Of a stretch of DNA of 33,453 bases, positions 2,724 to 33,453 are shown in pieces. The position numbers were made by a program, and so were the translations under genes. Under the pieces are notes generated by a model, which ran no database searches, had not been told where the DNA came from, and saw only the letters and a program-made list of their open reading frames with translations. The stretch comes from Acidobacteriota bacterium. GTDB taxonomy: Bacteria; Acidobacteriota; Polarisedimenticolia; Gp22-AA2; AA152. The stretch is from assembly GCA_022616665.1 (NCBI GenBank), contig JAKEFJ010000210.1, forward strand, positions 1 through 33,453, written 5' to 3'. Within the stretch, counting starts at the first letter, position 1; the number at the start of each line of letters is the position of its first letter.

Positions 2724-4529
2724 ATGATGCTCTCGAAGCGGTGGCTGTTCTCGGTTTGCCTGCTGGCAGCCCCCGGAGCCTGGGTGGCCCTGCAGCTCTC
2801 GTCGCCTGCCTCGGGGGAGTCGCCCTTCTTCGATCCCGCGCAGCTGCGCCCCGGCATGATGGGAGTGGGACGGACCGTCTTTCAGGGGGTGACTCCGGAG
2901 GAATTCCAGGTGGAGATCCTCGGAGTGCTCAAGAACGCCATCGGGCCGCAGCAGGACATGATACTCTCGCGCCTTCACGGGAAGAACGTGGAGCGCACCG
3001 GCGTCATCGCAGGCATGAGCGGGAGCCCGGTCATCCTCGATGGAAAGATTCTCGGAGCCGTCTCCTACCGGTTGGGCACCTTCGAAAAGGAAGCCATCGC
3101 GGGGATCACACCCATTGCCGACATGCTGAAGGCCGCCGACATGCCCCGCGCTCCCGCCCCGTCGCTCGCGGCCTCGCTGTTGAAGGAATGGGAAAGTCCC
3201 GGCACGGTCGCCGCGGCCACCCGTGCGGTCCCGATTCCCGGCATGGCGGCTTCCCTGGTCCCCATCGGGACGCCCTTGGTCTTCGCCGGTTACCCCGAGT
3301 CCTTGATCCGGGACGTCACGCCGCTATTCCAGGCCCGGGGGCTGGAGCCGGTGGCCGGGGGAGGCGGGCAAGGATCCGGAGCGGATTACCCCATCGCTCC
3401 GGGAGTGGCCATCTCGGTCCCTCTGGTGCGCGGGGATTTCAGTGTCGCGGCAACCGGTACCCTCACGCACGTTCAAGGGAACAAGGTTTGGGCTTTCGGC
3501 CACCCTTTTCTGGGCACCGGCCCGGTTCTTTACCCCATGGCCAGGGCCGAGGTAATTGTCACGTACCCCTCTCTCCTGGGCTCCTTCAAGATCGCCAACT
3601 CAACGTCGCTGATGGGAACCCTCCTTCAAGATAGGCTCACCTGCATTGAGGGAGAGCTGGGCGCCGCACCGGTGATGCTCCCGGTGACCGTCGGCGTGGA
3701 AAGTCCGACCGGAAACCGGCAGTTCTCCTTCGAGGTGGTTCAGGACGACGCGCTGACTCCCATCCTCGTGGGGATCACCATCCAGGCCAGCCTGCAGCGG
3801 ATTCTCGAGTACTCCTCCGAGACGACGCTGCGCGCCGAGATTCGCGTGCTGAGCGACAAGCACCCGACCCTGAGCTATTCCCTGATCGAATCGGATACCG
3901 GCGGTGTCCAGTCTGCCGCTGCCGGGGGAGTGGCCCGGGAGGTCGCGACGCTTCTGAACGTGATCTACGGCAACCGGTTCCGTGAGCTGCGGGTCACGTC
4001 CGCCAACGTCAAGGTCGTAGCCTTGCCCGAGGCCAGCTTGGCGCGGGTGAGCGAAGTCTCCATGAGCCCGTCCCAGGTTCGCTCCGGCGAAGACTTGACG
4101 GTGTGGGCCTCGCTGCAGCCCTACCGGGGAGAGGCCTTCCTCAAGGAATTCAAGGTCCGGATTCCGCCGGATACTCCCAAAGGGCCGCTGAATGTCCTGG
4201 TCTCCAGCGCCGCCAATTTGAACGGTTTGGAGGGGGGGGTGTTGCAACAACGGTTCAACGGGTCGCCCGGCGTGGATGAGCTCATCCGGTTCATCAATTC
4301 TCTCCGACGGGATGACGGGCTTTACCTTCAGCTGACGCGGCGCGGTCTCGGCGCGGTGGTTCAGGGAGAAACGCTCCCGGCGCTGCCCCTCTCGGTGGTC
4401 TTCACCTTGGGAAACAACCGGTTCACGGGAGAGGAATATCCCGCCCCGGAGCTTCCAGTGCTGGAGGTCGTGCAAAAGACCGATTTCGTCCTGACCGGCG
4501 GACGGCGCACCGCCATTCAGGTTCGCTGA
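2724..4529 (+). CDS. Exported SpoIVB/S55 peptidase-like protein
   Basis: This 601-residue protein begins with a signal peptide (hydrophobic core about residues 7-25). Residues about 35-140 match the S55 (SpoIVB) peptidase region: LRPGMMGVGRTVFQG, then the nucleophile loop GMSGSP at 97-102 (Ser99 or Ser101 as the likely nucleophile), followed by DGKILGAVSY. A second conserved block, WAFGHPFLGTGP, lies near residue 255. In Bacillus, SpoIVB is a signalling protease; homologues outside spore formers are exported proteins of unknown role. Here the GMSGSP block is N-terminal and a long beta-rich region follows, unlike SpoIVB, where the peptidase is at the C-terminal end. Two adjacent ATG codons (2724, 2727) could serve as start. 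It sits between a small orphan (7-base gap) and a propeller protein (26-base gap). Proteolytic activity is inferred from motifs only. Confidence 0.8.
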   Translation: MMLSKRWLFSVCLLAAPGAWVALQLSSPASGESPFFDPAQLRPGMMGVGRTVFQGVTPEEFQVEILGVLKNAIGPQQDMILSRLHGKNVERTGVIAGMSGSPVILDGKILGAVSYRLGTFEKEAIAGITPIADMLKAADMPRAPAPSLAASLLKEWESPGTVAAATRAVPIPGMAASLVPIGTPLVFAGYPESLIRDVTPLFQARGLEPVAGGGGQGSGADYPIAPGVAISVPLVRGDFSVAATGTLTHVQGNKVWAFGHPFLGTGPVLYPMARAEVIVTYPSLLGSFKIANSTSLMGTLLQDRLTCIEGELGAAPVMLPVTVGVESPTGNRQFSFEVVQDDALTPILVGITIQASLQRILEYSSETTLRAEIRVLSDKHPTLSYSLIESDTGGVQSAAAGGVAREVATLLNVIYGNRFRELRVTSANVKVVALPEASLARVSEVSMSPSQVRSGEDLTVWASLQPYRGEAFLKEFKVRIPPDTPKGPLNVLVSSAANLNGLEGGVLQQRFNGSPGVDELIRFINSLRRDDGLYLQLTRRGLGAVVQGETLPALPLSVVFTLGNNRFTGEEYPAPELPVLEVVQKTDFVLTGGRRTAIQVR

Positions 4530-4555
4530 TCAATCACGGAAGAAGGGGAGGAAGG

Positions 4556-6817
4556 ATGCGACGCGGGAGAAGGATGGGGCGATTCTTCATTTTGTCGGCC
4601 CTTGCAGGGCTGGCGGTGACGCAGGCATGGCCGGTCTCCACCCAGACCTGGAAGAATCGAACCCGATCAGAACGGGAACAGGGGGACTTGAACGGGGTTT
4701 CCTTGAAGGCCGACGGGACACTCACTCTCGGCCCGGCCTTCGAGACACTTGCCAGCGCCGCCGATCCTTATATTTGGTCACTGGCCCGCGATTCCAAAGG
4801 GACCCTTTATGCGGGCAGCGGCAACGACGGGAAGGTCTACCGACTGTCCAAGGGCGGGAAGCTCGAGAATTTTTTCGACTCGCCGGAGCTGGAGGTGCAC
4901 GCCCTCGCGCTGGATGCCAAGGACAATCTCTACGTCGGCACGTCGCCCCGCGGGAAAATCTACCGCCTCAGCCCTTCCGGAAAAGCGGAAGAGTTCTTCT
5001 CCCCCGATGAGACCTATATCTGGTCGCTGCTGTTTGACGGGAAGGGCAACCTGTTCGCAGGCACCGGGACGCAAGGGAGGATTTACAAGATATCGCCTGC
5101 CGGGAAGGGCGAAATCTTTCTCGACACCGATGAAACGCACGTTCGAGTCCTGGCGGAGGCTTCCGGAGGAGACCTCCTCGCGGGCACCGACGGCAAGGGA
5201 ATGGTCCTGCGGGTTGAACCTGCCGGAAAAAGCCAGGTGCTCACAACTTCCCCTCTGCCGGAGGTGACGGCTCTGGTGACAGGAAACTCGGGGAGGGTTT
5301 ACTTCGCTGCAGCGGGCCAGAGCAGCTCGCGCGCGGCGCAGCGCCCCGCGGCGGCGCCGGCGCCCCCTCGACCCGCTCAGGGACAGGCAGCGGAGGAGGA
5401 GAGGATTCCGGGACAGCCTCCCGCCGAGCCACCGGCTCCTCAGCCCCCTGCCCAGCCACAGCCGGCCGCCGCGCCGGCGCCGCAGACGGGCGCGGGAGTG
5501 GAGAGCAAGATTCTGGCGCTGGAAATGGACGGCTACACACGTGAGATTTGGTCGCAGCCAGGAGAGCTGATTCTTTCTCTGGCCATGGATCGCGATGGAC
5601 AGGTGATTGCCGGCGGGGGCACGGACGGAAAAATCTACCTCGTGGATCCCATCCGCTCCGAATCCACCCTCCTGGAGAAGGCCGACTCCTCTCAGGTAAG
5701 CGCTCTTCTCAAGGAGCCCGACGGGTCGGTCCTGGCGGCGGGAAGCAACCTGGGGGCTGTCTATCGCCTGGGGGGGAGGGTCGCCTCGGAGGGGTCTTTC
5801 GAATCCACCACCTTCGATACGAGGGTCTATTCGACCTGGGGCAAGATGAGCTGGCGGGACGAGACTCCCTCCGGCACTTCCGTGAGCATCCAGGTGCGGA
5901 CGGGAAACACTTCCGAGCCCGATTCCAGTTGGTCCGAGTGGTCCGCTCCCTATAAGGACCGTGAAGGCAGTCTGGTGGAGAGACCCGGGGCGCGCTTCGT
6001 GCAGTGGAAGGCAACGCTCAAGAGCGGTGGCGGCGGCAAGGACTCCCCACGGCTCGGGCAGGTGGATGTGACCTATCTCCAGCGAAACCTTCCTCCTGAG
6101 CTGAAGTCCGTGGATGTCCAGGCGCCGGGCACGGTCTTTCAGAAGCCCAACCGATCGTCCAGCAGCGTCGCGGTACCGGGGGAGGGCGCCAGTGCCCCGG
6201 GAAGGGGAGATCGCGACAAGGCAGCGCACCATCCCACCCAGCAGCCCAGGCCCCAGAGCGATCCCGAAGGGCGTGCCGCTCAGTGGGGCGCGTCGGATCC
6301 CAACGGCGACGATTTGGTGTATTCGGTTTATTACCGCGGAGCGGACGAGAGGCAATGGAAGCTCATGGAGAAGGACTTGACGGACTCTTTCTTCAGCTGG
6401 GATGCGACCTCTCTGGCGGATGGGACTTATCTTCTCCGGGTTGTGGCGGCGGATTCTCCTTCCAACCCGGAAGGGGCATTCCTCTCCGCCGAGCGGCTCA
6501 GTGATCCTTTCGACGTCGACAACAACCCCCCGCAAATCGGCCCCATCCAAGCCGCCGTCTCCGGCTCCGGCCTGAGAATGGAATTTGAGGTGCAAGATTC
6601 ATTCTCGGATGTGGGGGAGGTCGTCTACTCGGTGAATGCCCAGGAGTGGGAGTTGCTGCCACCCGCGGACGGCCTCACCGATTCGCCGCGCGAGGCATAC
6701 CGGCTGGTCATGAAAGACCTCGAGGGCGGAGAGCTGACGGTGGTGGTGAAGGCCAACGATGCGGCGGGAAACTCGGCCACTTCCAAGAAAGTGGTCCAGA
6801 TTGGCGCTCCCCGCTAA
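4556..6817 (+). CDS. Exported beta-propeller protein with Pro/Ala-rich insert and Fn3-like C-terminus
   Basis: This 753-residue protein has a signal peptide (about residues 1-30). From about residue 60 there are repeats of roughly 45 residues with the pattern D-x-KG-x-LYAG-x-G-x-x-GKIYRLSP-x-GK, i.e. propeller blades of the NHL/SMP-30/WD-like type. At least four are seen before a low-complexity Pro/Ala/Gln segment (about 255-320), and about two more follow (near 340-420). After that comes a beta-sandwich-like region (TWGKMSWRDETPSG, then VRTGNTSEPDSSWSEWS) and a C-terminal portion with Fn3-like segments. GGGGAGGAAGG lies just upstream of the ATG at 4556; Met7 is a second possible start. It is probably an extracytoplasmic binding or scaffold protein, possibly a substrate or partner of the adjacent S55 protein. 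No enzymatic residues are recognised. Confidence 0.75.
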   Translation: MRRGRRMGRFFILSALAGLAVTQAWPVSTQTWKNRTRSEREQGDLNGVSLKADGTLTLGPAFETLASAADPYIWSLARDSKGTLYAGSGNDGKVYRLSKGGKLENFFDSPELEVHALALDAKDNLYVGTSPRGKIYRLSPSGKAEEFFSPDETYIWSLLFDGKGNLFAGTGTQGRIYKISPAGKGEIFLDTDETHVRVLAEASGGDLLAGTDGKGMVLRVEPAGKSQVLTTSPLPEVTALVTGNSGRVYFAAAGQSSSRAAQRPAAAPAPPRPAQGQAAEEERIPGQPPAEPPAPQPPAQPQPAAAPAPQTGAGVESKILALEMDGYTREIWSQPGELILSLAMDRDGQVIAGGGTDGKIYLVDPIRSESTLLEKADSSQVSALLKEPDGSVLAAGSNLGAVYRLGGRVASEGSFESTTFDTRVYSTWGKMSWRDETPSGTSVSIQVRTGNTSEPDSSWSEWSAPYKDREGSLVERPGARFVQWKATLKSGGGGKDSPRLGQVDVTYLQRNLPPELKSVDVQAPGTVFQKPNRSSSSVAVPGEGASAPGRGDRDKAAHHPTQQPRPQSDPEGRAAQWGASDPNGDDLVYSVYYRGADERQWKLMEKDLTDSFFSWDATSLADGTYLLRVVAADSPSNPEGAFLSAERLSDPFDVDNNPPQIGPIQAAVSGSGLRMEFEVQDSFSDVGEVVYSVNAQEWELLPPADGLTDSPREAYRLVMKDLEGGELTVVVKANDAAGNSATSKKVVQIGAPR

Positions 6818-10946: not shown

Positions 10947-11540
10947 ATGCGGCGGATCCTTCCCGGTCTCGCTCTCCTGATCGTCCTCACGAGCCCGGTT
11001 TCGGCTGCGGAGGAAACTCCATCGCCGGATCCGAAGAGCTCCCCCAGCATCGCAGGATTGAACGTGGAAATCCGCGATGGATTGGTGCTGGCGTCCTTCC
11101 AGCTCGTGGGAGCGCTGGATTCCGAAACGCGCACACGCATCGCCTCGGGGCTGGAGACGACCTTCGATTATCGGGTCGAGCTAGTCCGGCGGCGCCGCTT
11201 TTGGCCCGATGCTCGGGTCCGGCAGCATCGAATTCTGACTTCGGCGAAATTCGACAGCCTGTCGCGCCAGTATGGCCTGACACTGAAACTGGACGGGGAG
11301 GTCGAGCGCAGCTCCACAACCGACAGGGCAGAAGAAATGGAGCGGTGGCTCACCGGGGTGAAAGAAGTCTCCCTCGGAATGGCTTCGGAGCTGCTCCCGC
11401 AAGAGGAATATGCCGTGAGGGTCAAAGCCGACTTTCCGCCCCGCTTCATCCTGCTGTTCATTCCCTGGGACCGGGACACCGCCTGGGTCCGAGGTGCGCT
11501 TCCGCCCCTTCCCGTGACCGAGCATGAGCCGCACCCCTAG
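10947..11540 (+). CDS. DUF4390-type exported protein upstream of an NtrY-like kinase
   Basis: This roughly 197-residue protein has a signal peptide (MRRILPGLALLIVLTSPVSA). The mature part has strands and helices matching DUF4390, including IRDGLVLASFQLVGALDSET and RTRIASGLETTFDYRVELVR. DUF4390 proteins are commonly encoded next to ntrY-like kinases. Its role is unknown, but an extracytoplasmic input to the kinase is plausible. The start can be GTG 10941 or ATG 10947; ATG is preferred. The stop overlaps the start of the kinase gene by 17 bases, which implies translational coupling. No cysteine or catalytic motif is visible. Confidence 0.8.
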   Translation: MRRILPGLALLIVLTSPVSAAEETPSPDPKSSPSIAGLNVEIRDGLVLASFQLVGALDSETRTRIASGLETTFDYRVELVRRRRFWPDARVRQHRILTSAKFDSLSRQYGLTLKLDGEVERSSTTDRAEEMERWLTGVKEVSLGMASELLPQEEYAVRVKADFPPRFILLFIPWDRDTAWVRGALPPLPVTEHEPHP

Positions 11541-13749
11541 CCACCGGCCGCGTAGAGTTCGCACCGACCGCCTGGTTCTCTTCGGCCTCGCGGCGCTGCT
11601 GGCATTCTTTCTGGCCGGGTATTTCCTGGCCCGCCGGGCCCAGGAGTTCTCCTGGCCCTACCTTACGAATTCCGTTCTTCTTTCCTTCCTGGGAATCACC
11701 AACGCCATTCTGATCCTGACGTTGCTGAGCCTGCTCATGCGAAACCTCATCAAGACGCTGAGCGAGCGGAGGCGCAACATCCTGGGTTCGCGCTTCAAGA
11801 CCAAGCTGGTGTTCACCATGCTGGCCCTGTGGTTCGTGCCCTCGGGAATCATCTTCTGGGCGGCCCTGCACGCCATTCAGGGGAGCGTGGACCGCTGGTT
11901 TTCCACGCCGGTAGATCGGATTGCCGCGGGCTCCCAGGCCGTCGTGGACGCCTTCTATGGGGACTACGAACGCCGCGCCGCGAGCGCGGCGCTGAGAATC
12001 GGCGAACACCTTCAATCGCTGCATCTCCTGAATTCGGACACCTCCGAAGCGAGGATTCACCAGGAGATGGAGGCCATGCTCAAGTCGGAGCGAGTCGACC
12101 TGGTGAGCCTCTACCGCGGGGAGGGAGAGCCGCTGATCGTGGCGGATCCCCTCCTGCCGCGCATCGGCGAGCTGGAAGGCATTCCCTCCCAAGTTCTGGG
12201 TAGGGCAAAAAGCGGGGAGCCATTTCATTGGATCTCACGGCTTGGAAGCGGCGTGGTGGTGCGCTGCGGCGCTCCAGTCGAAGCCCCGGGAGGGGCGCCG
12301 GCGGCCCTGGTGGCGGCCGGTTTTTACATTCCCAAAGACATGGCCCAGCTCACCAGCCAGATCAGCGATTATTCAGAGAGATACCGACAGGACAAGGCGC
12401 AGAGGCGGTCCATCAAGAACGTCTACATCTTTGCCTTCGCCTTCATCACCTTGCTGGTGCTTTTCTCCGTGACCTGGATCGGCCTTTACCTGGCCCGGGG
12501 GGTCACCGAGCCTATCGGCATGCTGGCGGAAGGAACCCGGGAGGTTTCGTCTGGAAACCTGGACTTTCACCTGGAGGTGAGAACCCGGGATGAGCTGGGA
12601 ATCCTGGCGGAGTCCTTCAACAAGATGACCGCCGATCTGAAGGGCAGCAAAGAGACCATCGAGCGCTCCAACCGCGACCTCGTTCGGAGCAATCAGGAGC
12701 TGGAAGAGCGCCGGCGATACATCGAGGCCTTGCTCCAGAACATCACCACCGGCGTCATCTCCCTGGACGCCGCGGGGATCGTGACGACGCTGAATCGGGC
12801 CGCGTCGAGAATCCTCGGCCTGGAGTCCGGACGGGAGGTCGTGGGCCTGCCCTACCTCGGTGTACTGGCGGCGCCCGAGATGGGCGATCTTCGCAGCGCG
12901 GTGGAGAAGAGCCTGAGGGATCGGGATCTGACCCCCGCACGGGAAATGGCCTTGAGCGTCCAGGGAAATCCCCTGACCCTGGCGGTCTCTTTTTCGCCGC
13001 TGGCGGACGGGAGGGGAGGGGCGCCGGGGCTGCTCCTCGTGTTGGAAGACCTGACGCCCCTCATGCGGGCCCAACGAGTTGCCGCCTGGAGGGAAGTGGC
13101 GCGGCGCCTGGCCCATGAGATCAAGAACCCTCTGACCCCCATCCAGCTCTCGGCCCAGCGAATCCTCAAGAAGTTCAAAGAGGGAAGCCCGGAGCTTCCC
13201 GAGGTTCTGGAGCAGGGAACCGAGGCGATCGTCCGGGAAGTTTCGGGTCTCAAGCGGATGGTGGACGAATTCTCGCACTTCGCGAGGCTGCCGGCCGTGA
13301 ATCCGGTCTCGTGCGATCTTCACGCACTCATCGACGACACGGTGGCGCTGTACGGCGGAGTCGGCGGCGCGCTGAGTTTTGAAAAGCGCTATGATCCGCG
13401 CATGCCTAAGGTCCTGCTAGATCCGGAGCAGATGAAACGGGTGTTCGTGAACCTGATCGACAACGCCCGGGACGCCATGGGGGGCTCCGGGCAAATCACT
13501 TTTTCCACCACCTACCATCCCGAAGTGGAATCGCTCCGGGTGGAAGTGGCCGACGAAGGGCCGGGGATCCGGCCCGAGGATCGGGATCGACTCTTTGTTC
13601 CTTATTTCTCAACCAAGAAAAAGGGTACGGGCCTGGGGCTCGCCATCGTGAACCGAATCGTCTCCGACCATAGCGGGTACATACACGTCGCAAACAGACG
13701 GCCTCGGGGGGCATGCTTCGTCATGGATCTGCCTGCCCGCAGGGCTTAG
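11524..13749 (+). CDS. NtrY-type membrane sensor histidine kinase
   Basis: The protein has 741 residues. It has N-terminal transmembrane segments (about 15-37, 44-66, 92-114), an extracytoplasmic loop of about 180 residues, a further transmembrane segment near 296-320 and a HAMP domain (about 326-375, EPIGMLAEGTREVSSGNLDF). A PAS domain follows (about 395-510). The HisKA box LAHEIKNPLTPIQLSAQRIL holds the phospho-acceptor His531, and the ATPase domain shows N, G1, F and G2 boxes (DNARDAMGGSG, DEGPGIRPEDRDRLF, FSTKKKGTGLGLAI). This is the NtrY layout. It phosphorylates the sigma-54 activator encoded nine bases downstream. In other bacteria, NtrY/NtrX-type pairs respond to nitrogen, redox or envelope signals; the signal here is not known. 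Confidence 0.93.
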   Translation: MSRTPSHRPRRVRTDRLVLFGLAALLAFFLAGYFLARRAQEFSWPYLTNSVLLSFLGITNAILILTLLSLLMRNLIKTLSERRRNILGSRFKTKLVFTMLALWFVPSGIIFWAALHAIQGSVDRWFSTPVDRIAAGSQAVVDAFYGDYERRAASAALRIGEHLQSLHLLNSDTSEARIHQEMEAMLKSERVDLVSLYRGEGEPLIVADPLLPRIGELEGIPSQVLGRAKSGEPFHWISRLGSGVVVRCGAPVEAPGGAPAALVAAGFYIPKDMAQLTSQISDYSERYRQDKAQRRSIKNVYIFAFAFITLLVLFSVTWIGLYLARGVTEPIGMLAEGTREVSSGNLDFHLEVRTRDELGILAESFNKMTADLKGSKETIERSNRDLVRSNQELEERRRYIEALLQNITTGVISLDAAGIVTTLNRAASRILGLESGREVVGLPYLGVLAAPEMGDLRSAVEKSLRDRDLTPAREMALSVQGNPLTLAVSFSPLADGRGGAPGLLLVLEDLTPLMRAQRVAAWREVARRLAHEIKNPLTPIQLSAQRILKKFKEGSPELPEVLEQGTEAIVREVSGLKRMVDEFSHFARLPAVNPVSCDLHALIDDTVALYGGVGGALSFEKRYDPRMPKVLLDPEQMKRVFVNLIDNARDAMGGSGQITFSTTYHPEVESLRVEVADEGPGIRPEDRDRLFVPYFSTKKKGTGLGLAIVNRIVSDHSGYIHVANRRPRGACFVMDLPARRA

Positions 13750-13758
13750 GGTCCACTC

Positions 13759-15126
13759 ATGTCCAGAGCCAGAATCCTGGTGGTGGATGACGAGGAGGGA
13801 GTGCGTGCCTCGCTGATGAGCATCCTCCGGGATGAAGGCTATCTGGTGGAAACGGCGGAGTCCGGTGAAAAGTGCTTGGAGCTGCTCGGGAAAAACGAAT
13901 ACCAGGCGGTATTCCTGGATGTCTGGATGCCTGGCAGGGATGGGATGGAAATCCTCACGGAAGTGACCGCTCGGCCGGGTGCCCCGGCGGTGGTCATGAT
14001 TTCGGGCCACGGCACGATCGAGACCGCGGTCAAGGCGGCCAAGATGGGGGCTTACGATTTCATTGAAAAGCCCCTGTCGCTGGAAAAAGTGACCCTGACG
14101 CTGCGCAACGCCCTCAAGCAGCGGCGGCTGGAGGAGAAAAACCGCCTCTTGAAGGAGGAGCTTTCACAGGATGAGACGCTGGTGGGAAACTCCCCACCCA
14201 TCCGGAGGCTGCGGGAAGAAATCGCCCTGGCGGCTCCCACCCACGGTCGGGTGCTGATCCTGGGCGAGAATGGAACCGGCAAGGAGTTGGTAGCCCGGAT
14301 GATCCACTCCAGGAGCCTGCGCAAAGAGGAGCCCTTCGTTGAGGTGAACTGCGCCGCCATCCCGGAGGAGCTGATCGAATCGGAGCTCTTCGGCCACATG
14401 CGAGGCGCCTTCACAGGGGCGGTGGAGAACAAGCGCGGAAAATTCGATCTGGCGGACGGTGGGACCCTGCTTCTAGACGAAATCGGCGACATGAGCCTGC
14501 GGACGCAAGCCAAAGTTCTGAGGGTGCTCCAGGAACAGACTTTCGAGCCGGTGGGAGGAGCAGGCACGACCCGCCAGGTCGACGTGCGCGTGATCGCCGC
14601 CACGAACAAGGATTTGGCCCAATCCATCGCCCGGGGTGAGTTCCGTGAGGATCTCTATTTCCGTTTGAATGTCATCCCTCTAATGGTCCCTCCCCTGCGC
14701 GAGCGCCGCGAGGACATCCCGGCACTCACCCGGCACTTCCTCGAGCGCTTCGGCGCCGAGTATGCCCGGAGACGGGAGGTTTCGCCGGAAGCCCTGGAGA
14801 CGCTCAAGCGGTACGACTGGCCCGGGAATGTTCGGGAGCTGCGCAATACCCTGGAGAGGATGGTGATCATGACCGCCAAGAGCGAAATCCGGCTGGAAGA
14901 CTTGCCAGCGGCGGTCAGGGGGCAGGAGAAGGACAGCAGCGGCGCTTGGGAGGCCTATGACGGCACCTCCCTCAAAAAGGCCCGGGCCGCCTTCGAAAGA
15001 CGGTTCATCACCCACAAGCTGCAGGAGGTAGGGGGAAATGTGGCCCGCGCAGCGGAGCTGCTGGGGGTCGAGCGAAGCCACCTCTACCGGAAGCTCAAGG
15101 CCTACGGAATCAAAGAGGGAAGCTGA
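13759..15126 (+). CDS. NtrX/NtrC-type sigma-54-dependent response regulator
   Basis: This 455-residue regulator has a receiver domain (1-120) with phospho-acceptor Asp54 (FLDVWMPGRDG), then an AAA+ domain with Walker A GENGTGKE (near 170), the sigma-54 contact loop GAFTGA (near 215) and Walker B LLLDEIGD (near 240). It ends in a Fis-type helix-turn-helix (AARAAELLGV-like, VARAAELLGVERSHLYRKLK). All key residues are present, so it should activate sigma-54 promoters when phosphorylated by the kinase encoded just upstream. The pair reads most like NtrX from its layout and its NtrY partner. No sigma-54 (-24/-12) promoter was convincingly found in the window. Confidence 0.94.
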   Translation: MSRARILVVDDEEGVRASLMSILRDEGYLVETAESGEKCLELLGKNEYQAVFLDVWMPGRDGMEILTEVTARPGAPAVVMISGHGTIETAVKAAKMGAYDFIEKPLSLEKVTLTLRNALKQRRLEEKNRLLKEELSQDETLVGNSPPIRRLREEIALAAPTHGRVLILGENGTGKELVARMIHSRSLRKEEPFVEVNCAAIPEELIESELFGHMRGAFTGAVENKRGKFDLADGGTLLLDEIGDMSLRTQAKVLRVLQEQTFEPVGGAGTTRQVDVRVIAATNKDLAQSIARGEFREDLYFRLNVIPLMVPPLRERREDIPALTRHFLERFGAEYARRREVSPEALETLKRYDWPGNVRELRNTLERMVIMTAKSEIRLEDLPAAVRGQEKDSSGAWEAYDGTSLKKARAAFERRFITHKLQEVGGNVARAAELLGVERSHLYRKLKAYGIKEGS

Positions 15127-24947: not shown

Positions 24948-26432
24948 TCAGCGTCCAGTCAGGAGGGAATGGAGACGCGCGGTGTCCACTTTGCCTCGGG
25001 CGGTGCGCGGCAAGGCCGGCAACAACAGCAGGCGGCGGGGGACCCGGTAGGCCGTCAGGTGCTTTCGGCAGTAGCGCAGCAGCGTGGCCTCGCGAAGTCC
25101 ATGCACGCCCACAACCGCCGCGGCGACCAATTCCCCCCGGAGGGAATCCGCGATGGAAAGGACCACCACCTCGCGCACTCCCGGCGCTCCGCCGAGAACC
25201 CGCTCCACCTCCTCCGGAAAGACCTTGCGTCCCCCGACGTTAATCATGCGGTCCAGTCGGCCCTCCAGGAAGATCCGTCCCGCCGAGTCCTTCCGGCCCA
25301 GATCACAAGTCTGGAAACGGCCGCGGAACAGGCGGGGTCGAGCTCCGGCACCGACGTATCCCAGCGCCACCGCGCTTCCCCTCACGACGATCCTGCCCGA
25401 ACGGCCTGCCGCGCCTCTCGACATCTCCCGGGTTGGCTCCAGGGCGACTCGAACGCCTTTCAGCGGTGCTCCCACGCCTCCGGGACGAGCCCCGTTCTTG
25501 GGGGACCTTTCGCAGGAAATCGCGCCGCACTCGCTGGCTCCGTAAAAATTCCTCAATGGGTTTCCGGTGCGCTCCGCGAACTTGCGGGCCGTCTCGCATG
25601 GCAACGGAGCCCCGGCGGAAACAGCCGGGCTCAGACGGGAAAGCAGATTGTCCGACACGCGTGAGGCGAGCAGAAGATCGAAAAGCAGCGGAACTCCCGG
25701 AAAGAAAAGAGCCTGGTGCCGGCCCAAGGCCTTGCGGAGCAGCTCAGGGAAGGGGTGCTCCAGGAGAACCAGGGGAATGCCAAGAAAGAGACAGGGGGTG
25801 AGCAGGGTGGAGAACCCGTAGGCATGACTCAGCGGAATGGCCGCCAGGGATCGTGTCGAGGTGGAGAGTTGCAGCGTGCCGGAGATATTCCTAGCGTCGG
25901 CGAGCATCTGGCGGGCGGAGAGGGCCACTCCTCTCGGCCTTCCCGCGGAGCCCGAGGTGGTGCGCACCAGAACCGTTTCCGTGGGAAGCGGCAGACGGCT
26001 GCGCGCCGCGATGGGAAGAAGCCTGAGGAGTGGCAACGGAGGCAGAAAGATGCTCTGCGATCCGGCGGGAGCCTCCTGGGAATCTTGCAGGACAGCGTGG
26101 GGAGAGAACTGTTCCAGCCGGCTCTGTTGATCGGATGGAGAGGCACTCGCCTCGGAGAGGATGGGCACGTAACCCAGATTCCAAAGTGCGGGCAGGGTCA
26201 CCAGCAGGGCCAGGGGATGGGAGATCTGGACGAGAATTCTGGCACCCGGGGGGAGCCGAACTCGCGAGATGGCGTCGGAGGCGCGTCGGATCTCGGCGAG
26301 CAGAGCCGGGCCCGAGAGATTGAGCGGGCCGGGAAGGAATTGAAGAAAATCGAGCCGGGGGCTGCGCTCCAGGCGCCGCTGGACAAGGGCGAAGAGGTCC
26401 GGTGAGGACTCGCGGGCCCGGAGCGCGGACAC
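24948..26432 (-). CDS. AMP-dependent acyl-CoA/acyl-ACP ligase
   Basis: The protein has 494 residues and belongs to the ANL superfamily. The P-loop motif A3 is TTSGSAGRPRG (residues 158-168). A4-A5 are represented by PLSHAYGFS and YGASECGAIS, the hinge by DLGRKDSAGRIFLEGRLDRM with INVGGRKVFPEEVE, and the catalytic lysine by RTARGKVD near the C-terminus. It activates a carboxylic acid as an adenylate and passes it to a thiol. With an ACP gene directly downstream, acyl-ACP formation is the likely role; the chain is unknown. The start is set at GTG 26432, four bases after the FtcD stop, with AGGCGAG upstream; the open frame continues into the ftcD gene but that extension does not look like this family. 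Confidence 0.87.
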   Translation of the reverse strand: MSALRARESSPDLFALVQRRLERSPRLDFLQFLPGPLNLSGPALLAEIRRASDAISRVRLPPGARILVQISHPLALLVTLPALWNLGYVPILSEASASPSDQQSRLEQFSPHAVLQDSQEAPAGSQSIFLPPLPLLRLLPIAARSRLPLPTETVLVRTTSGSAGRPRGVALSARQMLADARNISGTLQLSTSTRSLAAIPLSHAYGFSTLLTPCLFLGIPLVLLEHPFPELLRKALGRHQALFFPGVPLLFDLLLASRVSDNLLSRLSPAVSAGAPLPCETARKFAERTGNPLRNFYGASECGAISCERSPKNGARPGGVGAPLKGVRVALEPTREMSRGAAGRSGRIVVRGSAVALGYVGAGARPRLFRGRFQTCDLGRKDSAGRIFLEGRLDRMINVGGRKVFPEEVERVLGGAPGVREVVVLSIADSLRGELVAAAVVGVHGLREATLLRYCRKHLTAYRVPRRLLLLPALPRTARGKVDTARLHSLLTGR

Positions 26433-26436
26433 TACT

Positions 26437-27345
26437 TCACTCGCCTGTCTGCGCCAGTCGGTTTTCCAGCACCTGGGAAGGGTCGAAACCCTCCAGCTGC
26501 AGGTAGAAATCAGCGGCGGCGAGCAGTGCGTCGCCGGGAACCAGTCCCACGATCTCGCTCCCCACCACCGGGACGCCATATCGGGCGGCTTCAATGCGCA
26601 CCATTTCCACAACCCGGTGCAGCGGGGTCTTGCGGAAATGGGTCATGTTGATCGAGACCTGGGCAAGGCCCCGTCCGCTCAGGGCAACTCCCATGGCCTT
26701 GCAGTAACGCAGGCCTCCGCTGCTGTGGCGGATGGCCCGGGCGATCTTCTCGGCAATCTCCACGCGGGGAGTGCCCAGGTTCACGTTGAAGGCGATGAGA
26801 AACTCGCGGGCCCCCACGACGGTGGCTCCTGCCGAGGGATGGGGTGCCTGCGGGCCAAAATCGGGGAGCCAGCGCGGGTCCCCCATTTTCTCGCGCAGCG
26901 CCTCGAACTCCCCCTTGCGAATCTCGGCCAAATTGCGTCGGTGCTCGGCAGTGGCCGCCTCTTCATAGAGGTAGACCGGAAGCGAGAACAGCTTTCCCAC
27001 TTCTTCTCCCACGGAACGTGCGAGCTCCACGCACTCCGACATGGTGGCCCCGGACACCGGCACAAAGGGAACGACGTCCACGGCCCCCAACCGAGGGTGT
27101 TCCCCCTGGTGCCGGCGGAGATCGATCTTGGGCAGCGCCGCGTGAAACAGGGCGAGGATGGAGCGGCGCACTTGCTCGCCATCGCCGGCCACAGTCAGCA
27201 CGGAGCGATTGTGGTCGGCGTCCGAAGAGAGGTCCAGCACGCGTCCACCGCCCTCGACCTGACGCACCGCGGAGACGATTTCCTCGATCACATCCTTGCG
27301 CCGGCCCTCACTGAAGTTGGGAACCGCCTCAATAATCTTCGGCAA
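26437..27345 (-). CDS. ftcD: Glutamate formimidoyltransferase
   Basis: FtcD moves the formimino group from formiminoglutamate to tetrahydrofolate in histidine breakdown. The opening IIEAVPNFSEGRR and later blocks (DHNRSVLTVAG, RLGAVDVVPFVPV, YLYEEAA, VGAREFLIAFNVNL, AQVSINMTHF) match the family across the whole length. It is a single-domain type without the cyclodeaminase. The start is TTG 27345, with GGAGG five bases upstream, giving 302 residues; ATG 27366 is in frame but lacks a ribosome-binding site and would increase the overlap with gshA. No other hut gene is in the window. It overlaps the end of the glutamate-cysteine ligase gene and lies four bases from the acyl ligase, so all three are co-transcribed. 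Confidence 0.93.
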   Translation of the reverse strand: MPKIIEAVPNFSEGRRKDVIEEIVSAVRQVEGGGRVLDLSSDADHNRSVLTVAGDGEQVRRSILALFHAALPKIDLRRHQGEHPRLGAVDVVPFVPVSGATMSECVELARSVGEEVGKLFSLPVYLYEEAATAEHRRNLAEIRKGEFEALREKMGDPRWLPDFGPQAPHPSAGATVVGAREFLIAFNVNLGTPRVEIAEKIARAIRHSSGGLRYCKAMGVALSGRGLAQVSINMTHFRKTPLHRVVEMVRIEAARYGVPVVGSEIVGLVPGDALLAAADFYLQLEGFDPSQVLENRLAQTGE

Positions 27346-28708
27346 GGCTTCCTCCGGGCATTTCATAGGGTTTCAGCGTCAGACGCGAGCATTCCTGGAC
27401 CAGCCGCCGCGCATCCCCTTTCCAGTCGCCGAGCCAGCGCTGCTGGAGGATCTCTGCCGGACAGGCTCCTTTTCCGTCCAGCATCTCCGCCAGAGGATCG
27501 AGGAGGTCCACGGGCTCACCCTGCGAGGCCAAGCCTTCCCGGGCGATGCCGAGCAGTTTTTTCCCCGCGTCCAGCGCCGTGAGCTTGCCCAGTCGGGCCT
27601 CGGTGCCGGCCCTGCCCGCCTCCCTGTGAAAGGACTGGCGCTCTTCCCAAGAAAGCGGGGCCACCAGCTCCCAGGCCTCCCGCAAGGCGGCGGGATCATA
27701 GAGGATTCCCTTCCAGAGAGCCACCTGAGAGACCGCCAGAGCCGGGTCTCCCGAGTCGCCCCCCCGTATCTCAAGGTGCTGCTTCATCCTCACTTCGGGG
27801 AACAGCGTGGTCAGGTGGAGCTGAAAATCCGATAACGTGGCACGGTGCCCGCGGAAACCCCGGCGGATGAATTCCCGAAAGGGAAGTCCCTCGAGGTCGA
27901 CATAGGTTCCCTGCCGGAGAATGAACATCGTGGGGACATCCAGCGCGTACTCCCGGTAGTCGGAAAACGAGGCCTTGGGGTCAAAGGCGAAGGGGAGCAG
28001 ACCGCAGCGGGCTGGATCGGTATTCTGCCAGACCCAGCTTCGATAGCTCATGTACCCGGTTGGCCGCGCTTCGCAGAGCGAGGAATTCGCGTAAAGCGCG
28101 GTGATCAGCGACGTGAGGCCCATCGCCGCGCGGAACTTATCCAGGGCATCTTGCTCGTCGGAGTAATCGAGGTTGATCTGAACGCCGGCAGTCTGCTTCA
28201 TCATGACATGGCCCAAGGTCCCGGTTTTGGCCAGGTAGGACGACATGAGACCGTAGCGGGGCTTGGGAACCCAGCTGACGTCCGAAAGGGGGGTCAAAGG
28301 CTGCAGCCCCAGGCCGAGCCAGGTGATGCCCAGCGGCTCCGAGTGCTGCTGAATCAGTGTCGTGAAGCGCGCGACTTCGTCGCGCAAGTCAACGAGACGG
28401 CCGTGGACAGCGCCGGAAAGCTCCAATTGACCTCCGGGCTCGATGGTCAGGCGCGGGCCTTCCCCGTCCAAGGCAATGATATTGCCCCCGGCATAGACAG
28501 GCCGCCACCCGCCCCGAGCCACCAGCCGGGCCAGAATCGCAGAGAGCGAGTGCTGACCGTGGTAGGGAATCGCCCGCCCGCTGTCGAGGAACACTCCCAG
28601 CCTCTCGTACTCGATCCCGACTCCCCAGTCCTCCCGGGGACGGGCACCCCGCTCGAAATAGTCTTCCAAATCCCCCGGGCCGCTGAGGACCGGGTCGCGC
28701 TCCGGCAT
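27329..28708 (-). CDS. gshA: Glutamate-cysteine ligase (GCS2/plant-type)
   Basis: The protein has 459 residues. Family landmarks are present: GVGIEYERLGVF near the N-terminus, LTIEPGGQLELSGAVH (substrate and metal site), MMKQTAGVQINLDYSDE, and FPEVRMKQHLEIRGGDSG. This matches the plant/alpha-proteobacterial type that makes gamma-glutamylcysteine, the first step to glutathione or to ergothioneine-type thiols. No glutathione synthetase or ergothioneine gene is in the window, so the end product is open; EgtA is an alternative name. The ATG at 28708 has AGGAGA four bases upstream. It lies 79 bases after the ParA-like gene on the same strand and overlaps ftcD at its 3' end. Confidence 0.93.
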   Translation of the reverse strand: MPERDPVLSGPGDLEDYFERGARPREDWGVGIEYERLGVFLDSGRAIPYHGQHSLSAILARLVARGGWRPVYAGGNIIALDGEGPRLTIEPGGQLELSGAVHGRLVDLRDEVARFTTLIQQHSEPLGITWLGLGLQPLTPLSDVSWVPKPRYGLMSSYLAKTGTLGHVMMKQTAGVQINLDYSDEQDALDKFRAAMGLTSLITALYANSSLCEARPTGYMSYRSWVWQNTDPARCGLLPFAFDPKASFSDYREYALDVPTMFILRQGTYVDLEGLPFREFIRRGFRGHRATLSDFQLHLTTLFPEVRMKQHLEIRGGDSGDPALAVSQVALWKGILYDPAALREAWELVAPLSWEERQSFHREAGRAGTEARLGKLTALDAGKKLLGIAREGLASQGEPVDLLDPLAEMLDGKGACPAEILQQRWLGDWKGDARRLVQECSRLTLKPYEMPGGSLAEDY

Positions 28709-28787
28709 GATCTCTCCTGAACAGGTTGGGGGATTCTAACTATTCCCGGGGGTGATTCCTAGCGCGTCGATGACAGGGAGAGTGTGG

Positions 28788-30476
28788 CTAGCGAGGCCGG
28801 GCCTCTTCTTCCGGCGTCTCCGGCTCCAACCGGCGCATGTACTCGCGGCAAACCACGGTCGGGTCCAGTCCCAGGCAAAGTGCGAGCTGGCGGAGGAAGC
28901 CTCGGAGGAAAACCGGCTCGGGAAGATCGGCGAAGCGGTCCTCTTCCAGGGCTTCCAGAATGGCGGGGCGGATCTTCGTTTTCTCCACGATGGTTTCCAA
29001 AGTCAGCTTTTTCTCTTCGCGATGCTTGCGCAGAGACGCGCCGGTCACCGGAAGACCATCCCCGGGAACCGCTGGCTGGACGGGCTTTGCCTGCTCTTTC
29101 GCCGGGGCTCTTGCCGCATCGTCCCGGGCGGAGACCGGCAAGGCGGTAACCGATTCGGGCACGCTGGGAGCTGTGGCTCGCGAGGATCCCGACCCTTCCG
29201 TTTCCGGGCTCTTCACCTGCTCCGGCCGCAGGACTCCCTGGGATACCAGCTTGCGGTCGTACTCGGTCCGGGTTTCAAGGAAGATGAGAGTCCGGTAGGC
29301 GGACTCCAGCTGAGAGGCGATTCGTTCGATTTGGGAGTTGGAGAGCAGCGGGTGACGGAAGGTATTCTCCGGGTCATAGGCCCGCTTGAGGATCTGGTAG
29401 CCGAGTTGGATTTCCCTGGAGGAAGCCCCCGGCGCCAGCTCCAGCATGCGATAGTGATCCACCTCTCCCAGGCTCCGGTGGAGAGGCAGGGGCCGCTTTT
29501 CCTGGGTGCGATACGGCGCGATGAGAGCCGAAACAGCCCTCTCGATTCCCTGGGTGGCTGGAGAATTGGGGTACTGCTGGGAAAGGGGTTTGCGCTTTTG
29601 CACGGCCTGGAGGACTGACAGATCGTATTCCACGCAGCCCAGGCTGGTCATCTCCAGCCCGAAATACTTTTCCAGCCCGCTTTGGAGCACGGGAGCAATC
29701 TCCGAGTCCGCGTCGCCGCGAACCTGGTTCAGGATCAAGCTCAAGCGGATGGGATCCAGTGTCTTCAGCACCCGCTCGACCAAGGCCGTCTCACCCTCGC
29801 TTCGCAGCCGCTCCAGCGCCGAACGGAAGGAAGACAGTCCTTCTGAGCTCCCTTCGTCCAGGCAGCGGGCTATGTCCAGCTTTTCCTGTTCATCGGCGGA
29901 CAGCGCTCCCTGGAGAGTCTTCTCCAGAAACGATTCCATGAACAGGAAGACGGATTCCACTGAGGCCGGTTCAGGAGTCGCAACCAGAATGCCTCCCCCC
30001 GACCGCTGGAACAGCTCCAGAACTTCTCCACCACGCCCGGACCCGCAATCCACCAGTACCTGGTCCACTCCCAGGGAGGCTGCCTGCCTGGAAAACCTCT
30101 CCAGAATTCGGCCGCGCTGCTCCTGGGGAAGGGGGCTGAGGGAGCCGGAGAGGAGCTTCAGCCCCGAGACCGACGTGTCCAGGAGCAGTGAAGCCAGTGA
30201 GACCTCTTCAGGCTTGGCGGAGAGTTTCTCTAGGGTCTTGGATGGGGTGCCGATACCCAGGTAGGTGTGAAGATTGGCCCCCTCGAAATCCAGATCCGCC
30301 ACCGCCACTTTCTTCCCAAGCCGGGCCATCTGGATGCCCATGTTGGCCACCAGAAGGCTCCGGCCCACGCCCCCCTTGCCCCCCGCGACGGCCCATATCG
30401 CGGGCGCCCGGGAGGAGGAGCCGGAACCGGGGGAGGGTGGCGGCGCGGGGCGGACCGGCTCAGGCGGCTGGTTCAT
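28788..30476 (-). CDS. ParA/MinD-like ATPase fused to a J-like segment and a RodZ-type HTH
   Basis: The protein has 562 residues from ATG 30476. Residues 25-325 are a ParA/MinD/FlhG-type domain: AGGKGGVGRS (32-40), AVADLDFEGANLHTYLG and VLVDCGSG. The signature lysine (Lys34) is kept, but the canonical P-loop lysine is Arg39 (codon CGG). Residues about 339-410 resemble a J-domain (DHYRMLELAPGASSREIQLG, then TEYDRKL) without the HPD tripeptide. A Pro/Ala linker (415-475) leads to a RodZ/HTH_25-type helix-turn-helix (478-545, GASLRKHREEKKLTLETIVE, then PEPVFLRGFLRQLALCLGL). No transmembrane segment follows, unlike RodZ. It may link a cell-position ATPase to cytoskeletal or DNA partners. Its start overlaps the spoVR 3' end by 17 bases. 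A longer frame upstream lies inside spoVR and is rejected. Confidence 0.82.
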   Translation of the reverse strand: MNQPPEPVRPAPPPSPGSGSSSRAPAIWAVAGGKGGVGRSLLVANMGIQMARLGKKVAVADLDFEGANLHTYLGIGTPSKTLEKLSAKPEEVSLASLLLDTSVSGLKLLSGSLSPLPQEQRGRILERFSRQAASLGVDQVLVDCGSGRGGEVLELFQRSGGGILVATPEPASVESVFLFMESFLEKTLQGALSADEQEKLDIARCLDEGSSEGLSSFRSALERLRSEGETALVERVLKTLDPIRLSLILNQVRGDADSEIAPVLQSGLEKYFGLEMTSLGCVEYDLSVLQAVQKRKPLSQQYPNSPATQGIERAVSALIAPYRTQEKRPLPLHRSLGEVDHYRMLELAPGASSREIQLGYQILKRAYDPENTFRHPLLSNSQIERIASQLESAYRTLIFLETRTEYDRKLVSQGVLRPEQVKSPETEGSGSSRATAPSVPESVTALPVSARDDAARAPAKEQAKPVQPAVPGDGLPVTGASLRKHREEKKLTLETIVEKTKIRPAILEALEEDRFADLPEPVFLRGFLRQLALCLGLDPTVVCREYMRRLEPETPEEEARPR

Positions 30477-31944
30477 GCAGGTCGGCCTCTTCGAAAGATT
30501 CGCCGGTGAAAGAGATGAGCTTGGGCTTGTCCTCCACCATCGTGGCGAGGCAAGCTGGCCGTTGCCAGATCCGCTGAACGTTTCTGAGTGTCTCGCGGGC
30601 GTAGTCCATCCGCAGAGGGACCCCCTCAAAGCGGTGACGAAGGAGCAGCTCTCCCTTGTTCCGATAATTCCCGTCCGCCACTTCCATGAAAGGCAGCCCG
30701 CGATTGGTGAGCTGGAACAGGAGCTTCAGCTTGATTTCCCTGAAGCTGCGGCTGCTGATTTGGTAGAGGCCTGTCTTGGGGTTGAAATCGTAGACGAACA
30801 TCTTGTGCCGGCGGCAGAATTCCTCGGTGAGGTAGTTGTCGATGAAGGTCACGTCGTTGCAGAAGCGGCGGACTTCGAAAATCTTTTCTCTGCCCCGTCG
30901 AACGTTCTTGTCCCAGCGGGAGCGCTCCTGAAGGTCTTCGCATTCGTCAAATTCCTTCCCGAAGCGCCCCTTGTCCCAGCGCTCTTCGATGTCCCGAAAG
31001 AGTTCCACGCCCAGCTTGTAGGGATTCAGCCGCCCCGGGTGGGTCGCCACCGTTCCCGAGTGGTGATCCGCATAGTCAATCACCTCGGCGTCGGTGAGGC
31101 ACCGCTCGGTCATGATCTTGGAATGCCAATAAGTGGCCCAGCCCTCGTTCAGGATCTTGGTCTGCGCCTGGGGCGCGAAGTAGTAGGCTTCTTCCCGGAC
31201 GATGCTCAGGATGTCGCGCTGCCAGTTCTCCAAGGGAGAGTATTCAATGAGGAATTTGAGGACATCCCGGGTGGGCTCCTCCGGAAAGCTCTTCTTCCGA
31301 TCCGCCGCCTCTTGAATCCGCCTCTCCTCCCGGGCGAGGATGTCGGGAGGATTGATGTAGTCCTGCATGTACTCCTTGCTCTTCAAGCGGCGGGCCGATC
31401 GCTGAGGCTCCGCCGGATCCGCGGTGGGCCGTTCGCGCACGATGAACAGGGAATGGGGGTCGATGAGATTCTCCACCGACAGGCACAGGTCGATGAAGTT
31501 CTCCACCTTGTCCACGCCGTACCGGTCCATGTACCGGCGCACCCGGGTGGCGTGGTTGGCCATCTCATCCATCATTTTCCGGTTGGTCTTGGAGAACCAG
31601 ACATTGTTCTTGAAGAAGTCGCAGTGGGCGTAGACGTGGGCCATGACGATCTTCTGATCCACGTCGGCGTTGCACTCCAAGAGGTAGGCGTAGCAGGGAT
31701 CGTTATTGATCACCATCTCGTAGATCCGCTGCAGGCCGAAGGTGTAGCCCTTCTGGAGCTGCTCGAATTCCATCCCGAAGCGCCAGTGCGGGTAACGGGT
31801 GGGGAATCCGCCGTAGGCGGCCACTTGGTTCAGCTTGCGGTAATCCAGCACCTCGAAGACCACCGGAAAGAAATCCAGGCCGTAGGAGCGGGCCTGGGTT
31901 TCGATCTCCTTCTGGAGGGCCGCCAGCAAAGGCGAGAGGCTCAC
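30460..31944 (-). CDS. spoVR: SpoVR-family protein
   Basis: The protein has 494 residues. It matches SpoVR/YcgB along its length: [81 protein letters not shown] and [20 protein letters not shown]. In Bacillus it is linked to spore cortex formation, in E. coli to stress and stationary phase; the biochemical role is unknown. The start is GTG 31944, whose GTGA overlaps the stop of the DUF444 gene, with GGGGAGGGGG directly upstream. The longer frame in the window is an extension into the DUF444 gene and is not real. It is the third gene of the PrkA-YhbH-SpoVR module. Confidence 0.95.
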
Positions 31945-33047
31945 CGCCCCCTCCCCAGGAATTCCTTGATGGACTGATGGATGGATTCCTTGCTCTCGAT
32001 TTTGGAGAGAGCCACCGCCTCTTCGTCCGGGAAGGCCTCCTTCAGATCCAGCAGGAACTGGCCTGTGCCGTAGGGGCTCTCTACCTGACCGTAGCAGAAC
32101 AGGTTGACGGTGGGAAGCAGGTCGTCCCGGAGCAGGCGGACGCACTCCTGGGTGTCCCCCTGGGACCAGTTGTCGCCGTCGGAGAAGTGGAAGCAGTAGA
32201 CGTTCCATTCCTGCGCGGGATAGTCGGTGCGGGTGATGTCCAGAGCGAGCCGATAGGCGCTGGAGATCACCGTACCACCGCTCTCCCGGGTGTGATAGAA
32301 AGTCTCCTGATCCACCTCCCGGGCCTCCGCGTCATGAATGATGTACCGGATCTCCAGCCCCTTGTAGTGGTGCCTGAGCCAGGTGTCGATCCAGAATGAC
32401 TCGATGCGGACGATTTCCTTCTGCTCCTCTCCCATCGAGCCCGAGACATCCATCATGTAGAGGATGGCCGCGGTGGTTTCGGGCAGGATGGTGGGCCTCC
32501 AGGTGCGGTACCTTTTGTCCTCCCGGATGATGAAGGGAGCCGGGATCGCGCGGCGGTACGTTCCGCTGGCCAGAGAGCGCTTCAGCATCTCCTTGTAGGT
32601 GCGCCGGAAATGCCTGAGGGTTTCCGGGCCCGTTGGGGCAATGCCGGTGTATTTGGACTTCTCGGCCACGATGTTCTTCTTCCCCCGGGGCTCGATGCGG
32701 GGAAGCGCCAGTTCCTCTCCGAGCATCTCCGCCAGCTCCTCCAGGCTGACCTCAACCTCCAGGATGTGCTGGCCCGGGGCGTCACCGGCCTGTCCGCTGC
32801 CATCCTCCGGCTCCGCGGCACCCAGCACCGTCCCGAGGTCACCCTCGCCCTGACCCACTCCTCCCGACTGGCGGCTGCCGTGCACGAAATGGGGGATGGA
32901 GATTTGGGGCAGGGGAATGCTGATGAGATCCTTGCCTCGACGACCGATGAGCTCGCCCCGGGAGATGTACTTGCGCAGGTCCTGCTTGATCTTGCCGCGG
33001 ATGATTTGCTTGAAGCGATGGTGGTCCTGCTCGATTCGAAGGATCAT
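31941..33047 (-). CDS. yhbH: YhbH/YeaH (DUF444) protein with von Willebrand A-type domain
   Basis: The protein has 368 residues. The N-terminus [20 protein letters not shown], followed by [10 protein letters not shown] and [11 protein letters not shown], is the YhbH form. A MIDAS-like metal motif DVSGSMG (Asp200, Ser202, Ser204) marks the von Willebrand A-like part. A Gly/Gln-rich, low-complexity segment (about 57-92) separates it from the N-terminal region. It is the conserved partner of PrkA kinase and SpoVR. ATG 33047 is used; the ribosome-binding site is weak. It lies 72 bases downstream of the prkA stop and overlaps spoVR by four bases. Confidence 0.95.
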
Positions 33048-33119
33048 GGCGGCATCCGGGATCGCCCCGGGGAGGGACAGTAGAGGGAGGGGCCCCGGCT
33101 CGTCACGGGGCAGCTTTCT

Positions 33120-33453
33120 TCAGTCCCGCGCGTCCCCCCGGGCGAAGATGCTGGCGATGTAGTTCAGCACGTCCGTGGCGCAGACGTCACAGTAGCTGTA
33201 GTCCTTGATGAGGCGGCTCTTGACCACGTCGATCTTCTCCTGGGTCTCCTTGTCCACCACGCTGCTCACCAGGCTCGTGAGCTTGATGGAGTCCTTCTGG
33301 TCTTCGAACAACTTGAGCTCCAGGGCCTTGTGAAGTCGCTCATTGGTGCGGTAGTTGAAGGTCTTCCGCTCTACGGCCAGAGCGCCGATGTAGTTCATGA
33401 TCTCCCGCCGAAAATCATCCTTGCGATTCTCCGGGATGTCGATCTTCTCTTCG
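33120..33453 (-). CDS. prkA: PrkA-type serine protein kinase, C-terminal part (runs off the right edge)
   Basis: The last 110 residues are seen; the frame is open to the window edge. The sequence [20 protein letters not shown], followed by [20 protein letters not shown] and [20 protein letters not shown], and ending [20 protein letters not shown], matches the C-terminal domain of PrkA/YeaG kinases. The kinase/AAA+ part lies outside the window. PrkA is the lead gene of the PrkA-YhbH-SpoVR module, and the order here is the standard one. Confidence 0.93.

Follow-up and report, generated by a model that had tools for sequence, protein, structure and literature searches.

A MinD-like and J/HTH fusion protein with arginine in its P-loop, encoded beside PrkA, DUF444 and SpoVR in an Acidobacteriota bacterium

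Gene row and domain composition of the fusion protein

The window, that is the whole stretch of DNA that was analysed (33,453 nucleotides), originates from a soil bacterium of the phylum Acidobacteriota. A row of minus-strand genes in it encodes, in this order, PrkA, a DUF444 protein, SpoVR, a three-domain fusion protein, a glutamate-cysteine ligase and a formiminotransferase (Table 1). The fusion gene starts with an ATG at position 30476 and ends with a stop codon at 28788-28790, and the stop of SpoVR overlaps its start by 17 nt. A promoter and terminator scan of positions 26000-33453 gave no more than shuffled sequences give.

Table 1. Positions in the window of the genes in the row and of the domains and motif of the fusion protein.
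Feature	Position	Strand	Basis
PrkA, C-terminal 110 residues, cut by the contig end	33120..33452	-	98% identical to the PrkA C terminus of locus L033
DUF444 (YeaH/YhbH) protein	31941..33047	-	Domain profiles
SpoVR	30460..31929	-	Pfam; the upper limit is that of the Pfam domain, not a start codon
Three-domain fusion protein (P0001)	28788..30476	-	ORF of 562 aa; identity to full-length relatives in genus and family 70, 62 and 60%
MinD/FlhG-like P-loop domain, residues 25-325	29502..30404	-	Pfam CbiA/ParA; structure match to FleN 5j1j
Deviant Walker A motif KGGVGRS, residues 34-40 (Arg39 codon 30360-30362)	30357..30377	-	Direct reading, relatives compared
J-like domain, residues 340-412, YDP instead of HPD	29241..29459	-	Pfam, structure, family alignment
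RodZ-type HTH (HTH_25), residues 479-548, with F523/F527 pair	28833..29042	-	Pfam, alignment
Glutamate-cysteine ligase (GCS2), downstream of the fusion gene	27329..28708	-	Domain profiles
Formiminotransferase (FTCD), further down the row	26437..27366	-	Domain profiles

The original prediction, made from the DNA sequence, had described the protein as a fusion of a ParA-like ATPase, a J-like block and a RodZ-type HTH, and all three parts were confirmed. Pfam matched ParA (E 2.8e-13) and CbiA (E 5.4e-11) across residues 27-297. An AlphaFold2 model built with nine sequences reached a mean pLDDT of 75.8 and contains three ordered parts, with low confidence for the linker 424-475. In a comparison against the PDB, the P-loop domain was matched by FleN (5j1j) with a Z score of 27.1 over 242 residues at an rmsd of 2.5, and further by FlhG (4rz3, Z 26.7) and MinD (3q9l, Z 25.2); the comparison of the full model covers mainly the P-loop domain (model residues 23-375), and the absence of other families from it is uninformative. 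The protein has a SIMIBI fold with the motif order of the MinD type. FleN/FlhG, the best PDB match by both sequence and structure, shares this fold and motif order, but the identity is about 20%, the window protein has Arg for the P-loop Lys and J-like and HTH domains are attached to it. No flagellar genes occur among the annotated neighbours. The protein had been proposed to be a positional ATPase; placement in the FleN/FlhG/MinD group holds as the best structural match, whereas the positional role is unproven.

For the J-like block, the Pfam DnaJ profile gave E 2e-4 and 21.8 bits over residues 340-407, below the cut-off of 27.8, and it exceeds this cut-off in the relatives L072 and L084. Folded by itself, the block adopted a J fold with a pLDDT of 82.5. 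Its best PDB matches were J domains, which formed the top rows in Foldseek (best E 1.3e-3, probability 1.00), and VIA-align yielded a Z score of 12.1 to 4wb7 over 71 residues at an rmsd of 1.8. The fold is that of DnaJ-type J-domain proteins, but HPD is absent across the family, as had been noted for the window protein itself: it was found in 0/103 J domains, a set that includes overlapping loci and hence does not equal 103 genomes. Because of this absence, Hsp70 stimulation is unlikely, a functional J co-chaperone was ruled out and the chaperone-like role suggested earlier is not supported.

The HTH was matched strongly by HTH_25 (E 2.1e-22 and 79.2 bits over residues 482-540 in the protein, 83.6 bits in the genome search; cut-off 24.6), and its best matches are RodZ-type domains (4gqm, 2wus). 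The fusion protein shares this domain and its aromatic pair with RodZ but has neither a transmembrane helix, as predicted, nor a periplasmic part, the highest 19-residue Kyte-Doolittle mean being 1.28. The same genome encodes a separate HTH_25 protein with a transmembrane helix, like ordinary RodZ, and this protein together with the absent helix rules out the fusion as an ordinary RodZ. A plasmid origin was also rejected, its sole trace being one weak HTH-only plasmid match, as was a defence origin, for which PADLOC gave nothing beyond a weak similarity between the P-loop region (residues 26-66) and PDC-M28B at E 1.3e-6.

RodZ-type HTH domains are known for binding MreB, which bears on two alternative functions of the protein. 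In one, the HTH would bind DNA and the protein would autoregulate its own operon like a type Ia ParA, with the P-loop domain serving for dimerisation. The strong HTH_25 match and the location of the gene within the row to be controlled are consistent with such a regulator, and large HTH-bearing ParA proteins autoregulate according to a part of PMC9178275; their HTH is N-terminal there, whereas it is C-terminal here and closest to RodZ-type domains, and autoregulation is considered improbable. In the other, the protein would be a positioning adaptor whose HTH docks on MreB filaments and keeps its complex near the cell wall machinery. Residues F523/F527 align with RodZ-type MreB contacts (E. coli F60/Y64 and Chlamydia Ct009 Y66/F70, as given in a section of PMC4047632), the pattern Y/F-x3-F occurs in 35/41 HTH rows of the family and MreB is encoded in the same genome. 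The aromatic pair, however, is probably a general feature of HTH_25 and not diagnostic, and the genome has its separate RodZ-like protein, which makes an MreB-bound adaptor quite improbable.

The P-loop lysine and the nucleotide pocket

The P-loop of the window protein reads AVAGGKGGVGRSLL. As had been predicted, the signature Lys (K34) is present and Arg stands at position 39, encoded by CGG. Because Arg39 replaces the P-loop Lys, the protein is a variant of MinD/ParA and not a standard member. The whole architecture was found again together with Arg in 10 related genomes, in which the codons differ, and a local exception or a sequencing error was thereby ruled out. In 23 readable full ATPase-J-HTH fusions the residue is Arg 11 times, Thr 10 times (L044-L051, L053, L056), Val once (L052) and Lys once (L043); three ATPase rows with an unreadable P-loop, among them two full fusions truncated at the ends of their contigs, had been dropped before counting. 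L041 is included among the full fusions, the different frame of its HTH being attributed to an assembly slip. Arg is present in every one of the 11 fusions read from the window's order (the window and L033-L042), and L043 is the one relative of the same architecture with the ordinary Lys. The original observation is real and more general than its reader knew; it included neither the Thr and Val forms nor the PrkA-DUF444-SpoVR-GCS2 row and the two-gene form described below.

The Arg codons in the 11 fusions are CGC (6), CGG (4) and CGA (1), with no AGR. Six pairs gave dN/dS values of 0.10-0.26 at dS 0.47-1.64, and Arg is held at the P-loop position by selection. Since the Arg clade forms one group in the tree (SH-aLRT 90), Arg most likely arose once. 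The rest of the pocket is conserved in this clade, with K34, S/T40, D61, D63 and D143 each present in 11/11 members and N250 in 10/11. In the Thr/Val fusions the Asp at switch-I position 63 is lost to Ala, Ser or Asn in 11/11, N250 is kept in 3/11 and the signature Lys in 6/11. Two grades of pocket therefore exist, one intact except for the Lys-to-Arg change in the Arg clade and one broadly worn in the Thr/Val forms. The further losses in the Thr/Val lineages would suit a decaying relic, in which the gene would be degrading and both the fusion and the loss of Lys would belong to that process, but the low dN/dS, the open reading frames and the gene row that is stable throughout the order make such decay highly improbable.

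The P-loop Lys is present in 45/45 compared relatives other than full fusions, drawn from L057-L092 and L160-L179 and including two ATPase-J fusions (L061, L062) and one ATPase-HTH fusion (L172); omitted from the 45 were ATPases for which no J or HTH neighbour was found, unreadable rows, one duplicate, L054 and L055 (both Lys), and L130-L159 (30 loci, all Lys, with genomes overlapping those of L160-L179). The four ATPase-J fusions without an HTH (L054, L055, L061, L062) all have Lys. This invariance argues against an active ATPase, in which Arg39 would take over the function of the Lys, the protein would cycle like FlhG/MinD and the HTH and J arms would be partner sites. In addition, Walker A Lys-to-Arg changes generally reduce hydrolysis strongly. 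Such an enzyme would nevertheless account for the retention of the other catalytic residues, including D63, D143 and the signature Lys, in 11/11 Arg members, and Arg is a conservative change under purifying selection; an active ATPase is considered unlikely.

The tree contains about three changes of fusion state and four of Lys loss, and at most three independent pairs; with so few changes, fusion and Lys loss form an association without statistical support. The tree is of a quick kind in which long branches meet, and L043, L044/L045, L052 and the f14/f39 group have no resolved positions in it. Neither fusion nor operon membership needs the loss of Lys, because L043, which has the same gene row, keeps it. 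Three other forms were noted among the relatives. In the window's order, a second relative (L054, L055, L061, L062), an ATPase-J protein without HTH and with the motif KGGTGKS, occurs beside the Arg-bearing three-domain protein. Of two ATPases without J or HTH, L086 has the P-loop GGGKKGVGK and Ser at the switch-I position, and L090 has KGGVGTS, in which Lys is lost, and Asn at the switch-I position.

Distribution and two-gene form

A search of 297 genomes of the phylum returned whole-length fused relatives from the genus, family and order of the window as well as from some additional families; of 41 genomes covered by a class-wide search, 15 had a match with an E value of 1e-25 or below. In other lineages a separate gene for the J or J/HTH part mostly comes after the P-loop gene, in many cases with an overlap between the two, and this two-gene form is present in both phyla examined. 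In the second phylum, probably Myxococcota, the profile from alignment A1 matched at E 1e-30 in 143/193 genomes. A J domain was found there in the neighbouring ORF at 30/30 loci and as a neighbour in 19/20 larger regions, with eight genomes common to the two sets. The exception, L172, encodes at 3192-4631 an ATPase-HTH fusion that keeps Lys and in which no J domain was detected.

Because the same domains mostly occur elsewhere as two adjacent genes, the fusion is probably the derived state. Neighbour genes are shared by L052 (fused, KGGVGVS) and L071, L072 and L075 (two genes, KGGVGKS), which suggests that a two-gene locus became a fusion there. No shared function is apparent among the neighbours of the two-gene form, which include SelA, a pseudouridine synthase, a polyprenyl synthetase, GGDEF proteins and others. 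At L165 and L164, in the phylum of genome G304, SelA and an S4-domain pseudouridine synthase are encoded close to the two-gene module. The window also encodes a PAS/HAMP sensor kinase (11524-13746, plus strand) followed by a sigma-54 response regulator (13759-15123, plus strand), and similar kinase/regulator pairs lie near some two-gene loci.

Association with the PrkA, DUF444 and SpoVR genes

DUF444 and SpoVR lie upstream of and next to the fusion in 13/13 other related fused loci from the same class. PrkA was seen in 11 of these 13; in L041 and L045 the contig stops before reaching it. Of 12 genomes searched in the window's order, 11 have SpoVR as a single copy beside the fusion, and it was not found in the twelfth, which is 63% complete. 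Among 22 fusion-bearing genomes searched, 17 encode the glutamate-cysteine ligase and 15 of these have it beside the fusion; of the two others, one has the fusion at the edge of a contig and the ligase on a different one, and the other, the Lys-bearing G110, has the ligase elsewhere. In eight genomes with the two-gene form that were searched, the ligase is adjacent in 0 of the 5 that encode it. As both SpoVR and the ligase were not found in some fusion-bearing genomes (f39, L052), neither is an obligate partner.

PrkA, DUF444 and SpoVR together form a widely conserved stress module. YcgB (SpoVR), YeaH and YeaG are described as co-conserved in part of PMC2375023, and a portion of PMC4664914 links E. 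coli yeaG (PrkA) and yeaH (DUF444) functionally in sustained nitrogen starvation. For B. anthracis PrkA, a part of PMC13001217 reports protease and kinase activities that are negligible, and a function in sporulation and stress. The window has the three genes of this PrkA-YeaH-SpoVR module directly upstream of the fusion and differs from the module as known by an extra P-loop component and the glutamate-cysteine ligase, an addition for which no report was found in the open-licence literature.

Proposed role of the fusion protein and related P-loop variants

From the observed architecture, the fixed Arg, the conserved pocket, the two-gene relatives and the gene row, the following explanation is proposed, to which a probability of roughly 45% is assigned as a whole. 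The ancestor would have been a two-gene module of a MinD/FlhG-like ATPase and a cytosolic adaptor with an HPD-less J fold and a RodZ-type HTH. Fusion of both genes, in the direction favoured by the two-gene relatives, would have given one cytosolic protein, in which the P-loop Lys became fixed as Arg in the window's order with retention of the remaining nucleotide pocket. Judged from the conserved residues, with the pocket kept except for the Lys-to-Arg change, this protein most likely binds nucleotide with weak or absent hydrolysis, although Arg39 may allow some ATPase activity. It would then act as a standing dimeric scaffold instead of a cycling switch, using its J-like and HTH arms to hold or position the PrkA/DUF444/SpoVR stress machinery. 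The contact with these three proteins is suggested by the gene row, as guilt by association. More generally, a MinD-like switch fused to a J-like/HTH adaptor, with its Lys replaced by Arg, Thr or Val in several lineages, may have become a fixed scaffold and, in one class, an added component of the PrkA-YeaH-SpoVR module; this broader reading is held only tentatively and must be called doubtful.

A MinD-like partner in the same gene row would provide a handle on the location and the driving force of the PrkA/DUF444/SpoVR complex, and the two-gene form indicates which proteins belong together. The fusion family also offers a natural series of Lys, Arg and Thr/Val forms for the question of when a P-loop switch can dispense with its lysine.

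New here is the fusion of a MinD-like protein with a J/HTH part, combined with a changed P-loop and linked to the PrkA stress operon in one class. No description of it was found in the open-licence literature; the kind itself is known. BcsQ, assigned to the SIMIBI superfamily in a part of PMC7439463, has its P-loop tabulated as RGGVGTT in PMC9178275, and loss of the P-loop Lys is therefore already known in the superfamily. This non-canonical P-loop resembles the Thr forms of the fusion family; the window protein differs from BcsQ by its KGGVGRS motif and by a weak score of 27.2 bits against a cut-off of 157.85. The KGGVGR motif is common to the window protein and the NCBIfam family NF047398 (KGGVGR-motif variant AAA ATPase), whose profile was matched at E 0.001 or better by 12/12 members of alignment A1. 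Membership in this family was ruled out, as the window protein reached 36.5 bits, where 90 are required, and aligned over residues 25-74 only. Another P-loop protein of the same genome (contig C68, 799-1068, minus strand) scored 36.7 bits to the KGGVGR family, also under the cut-off.
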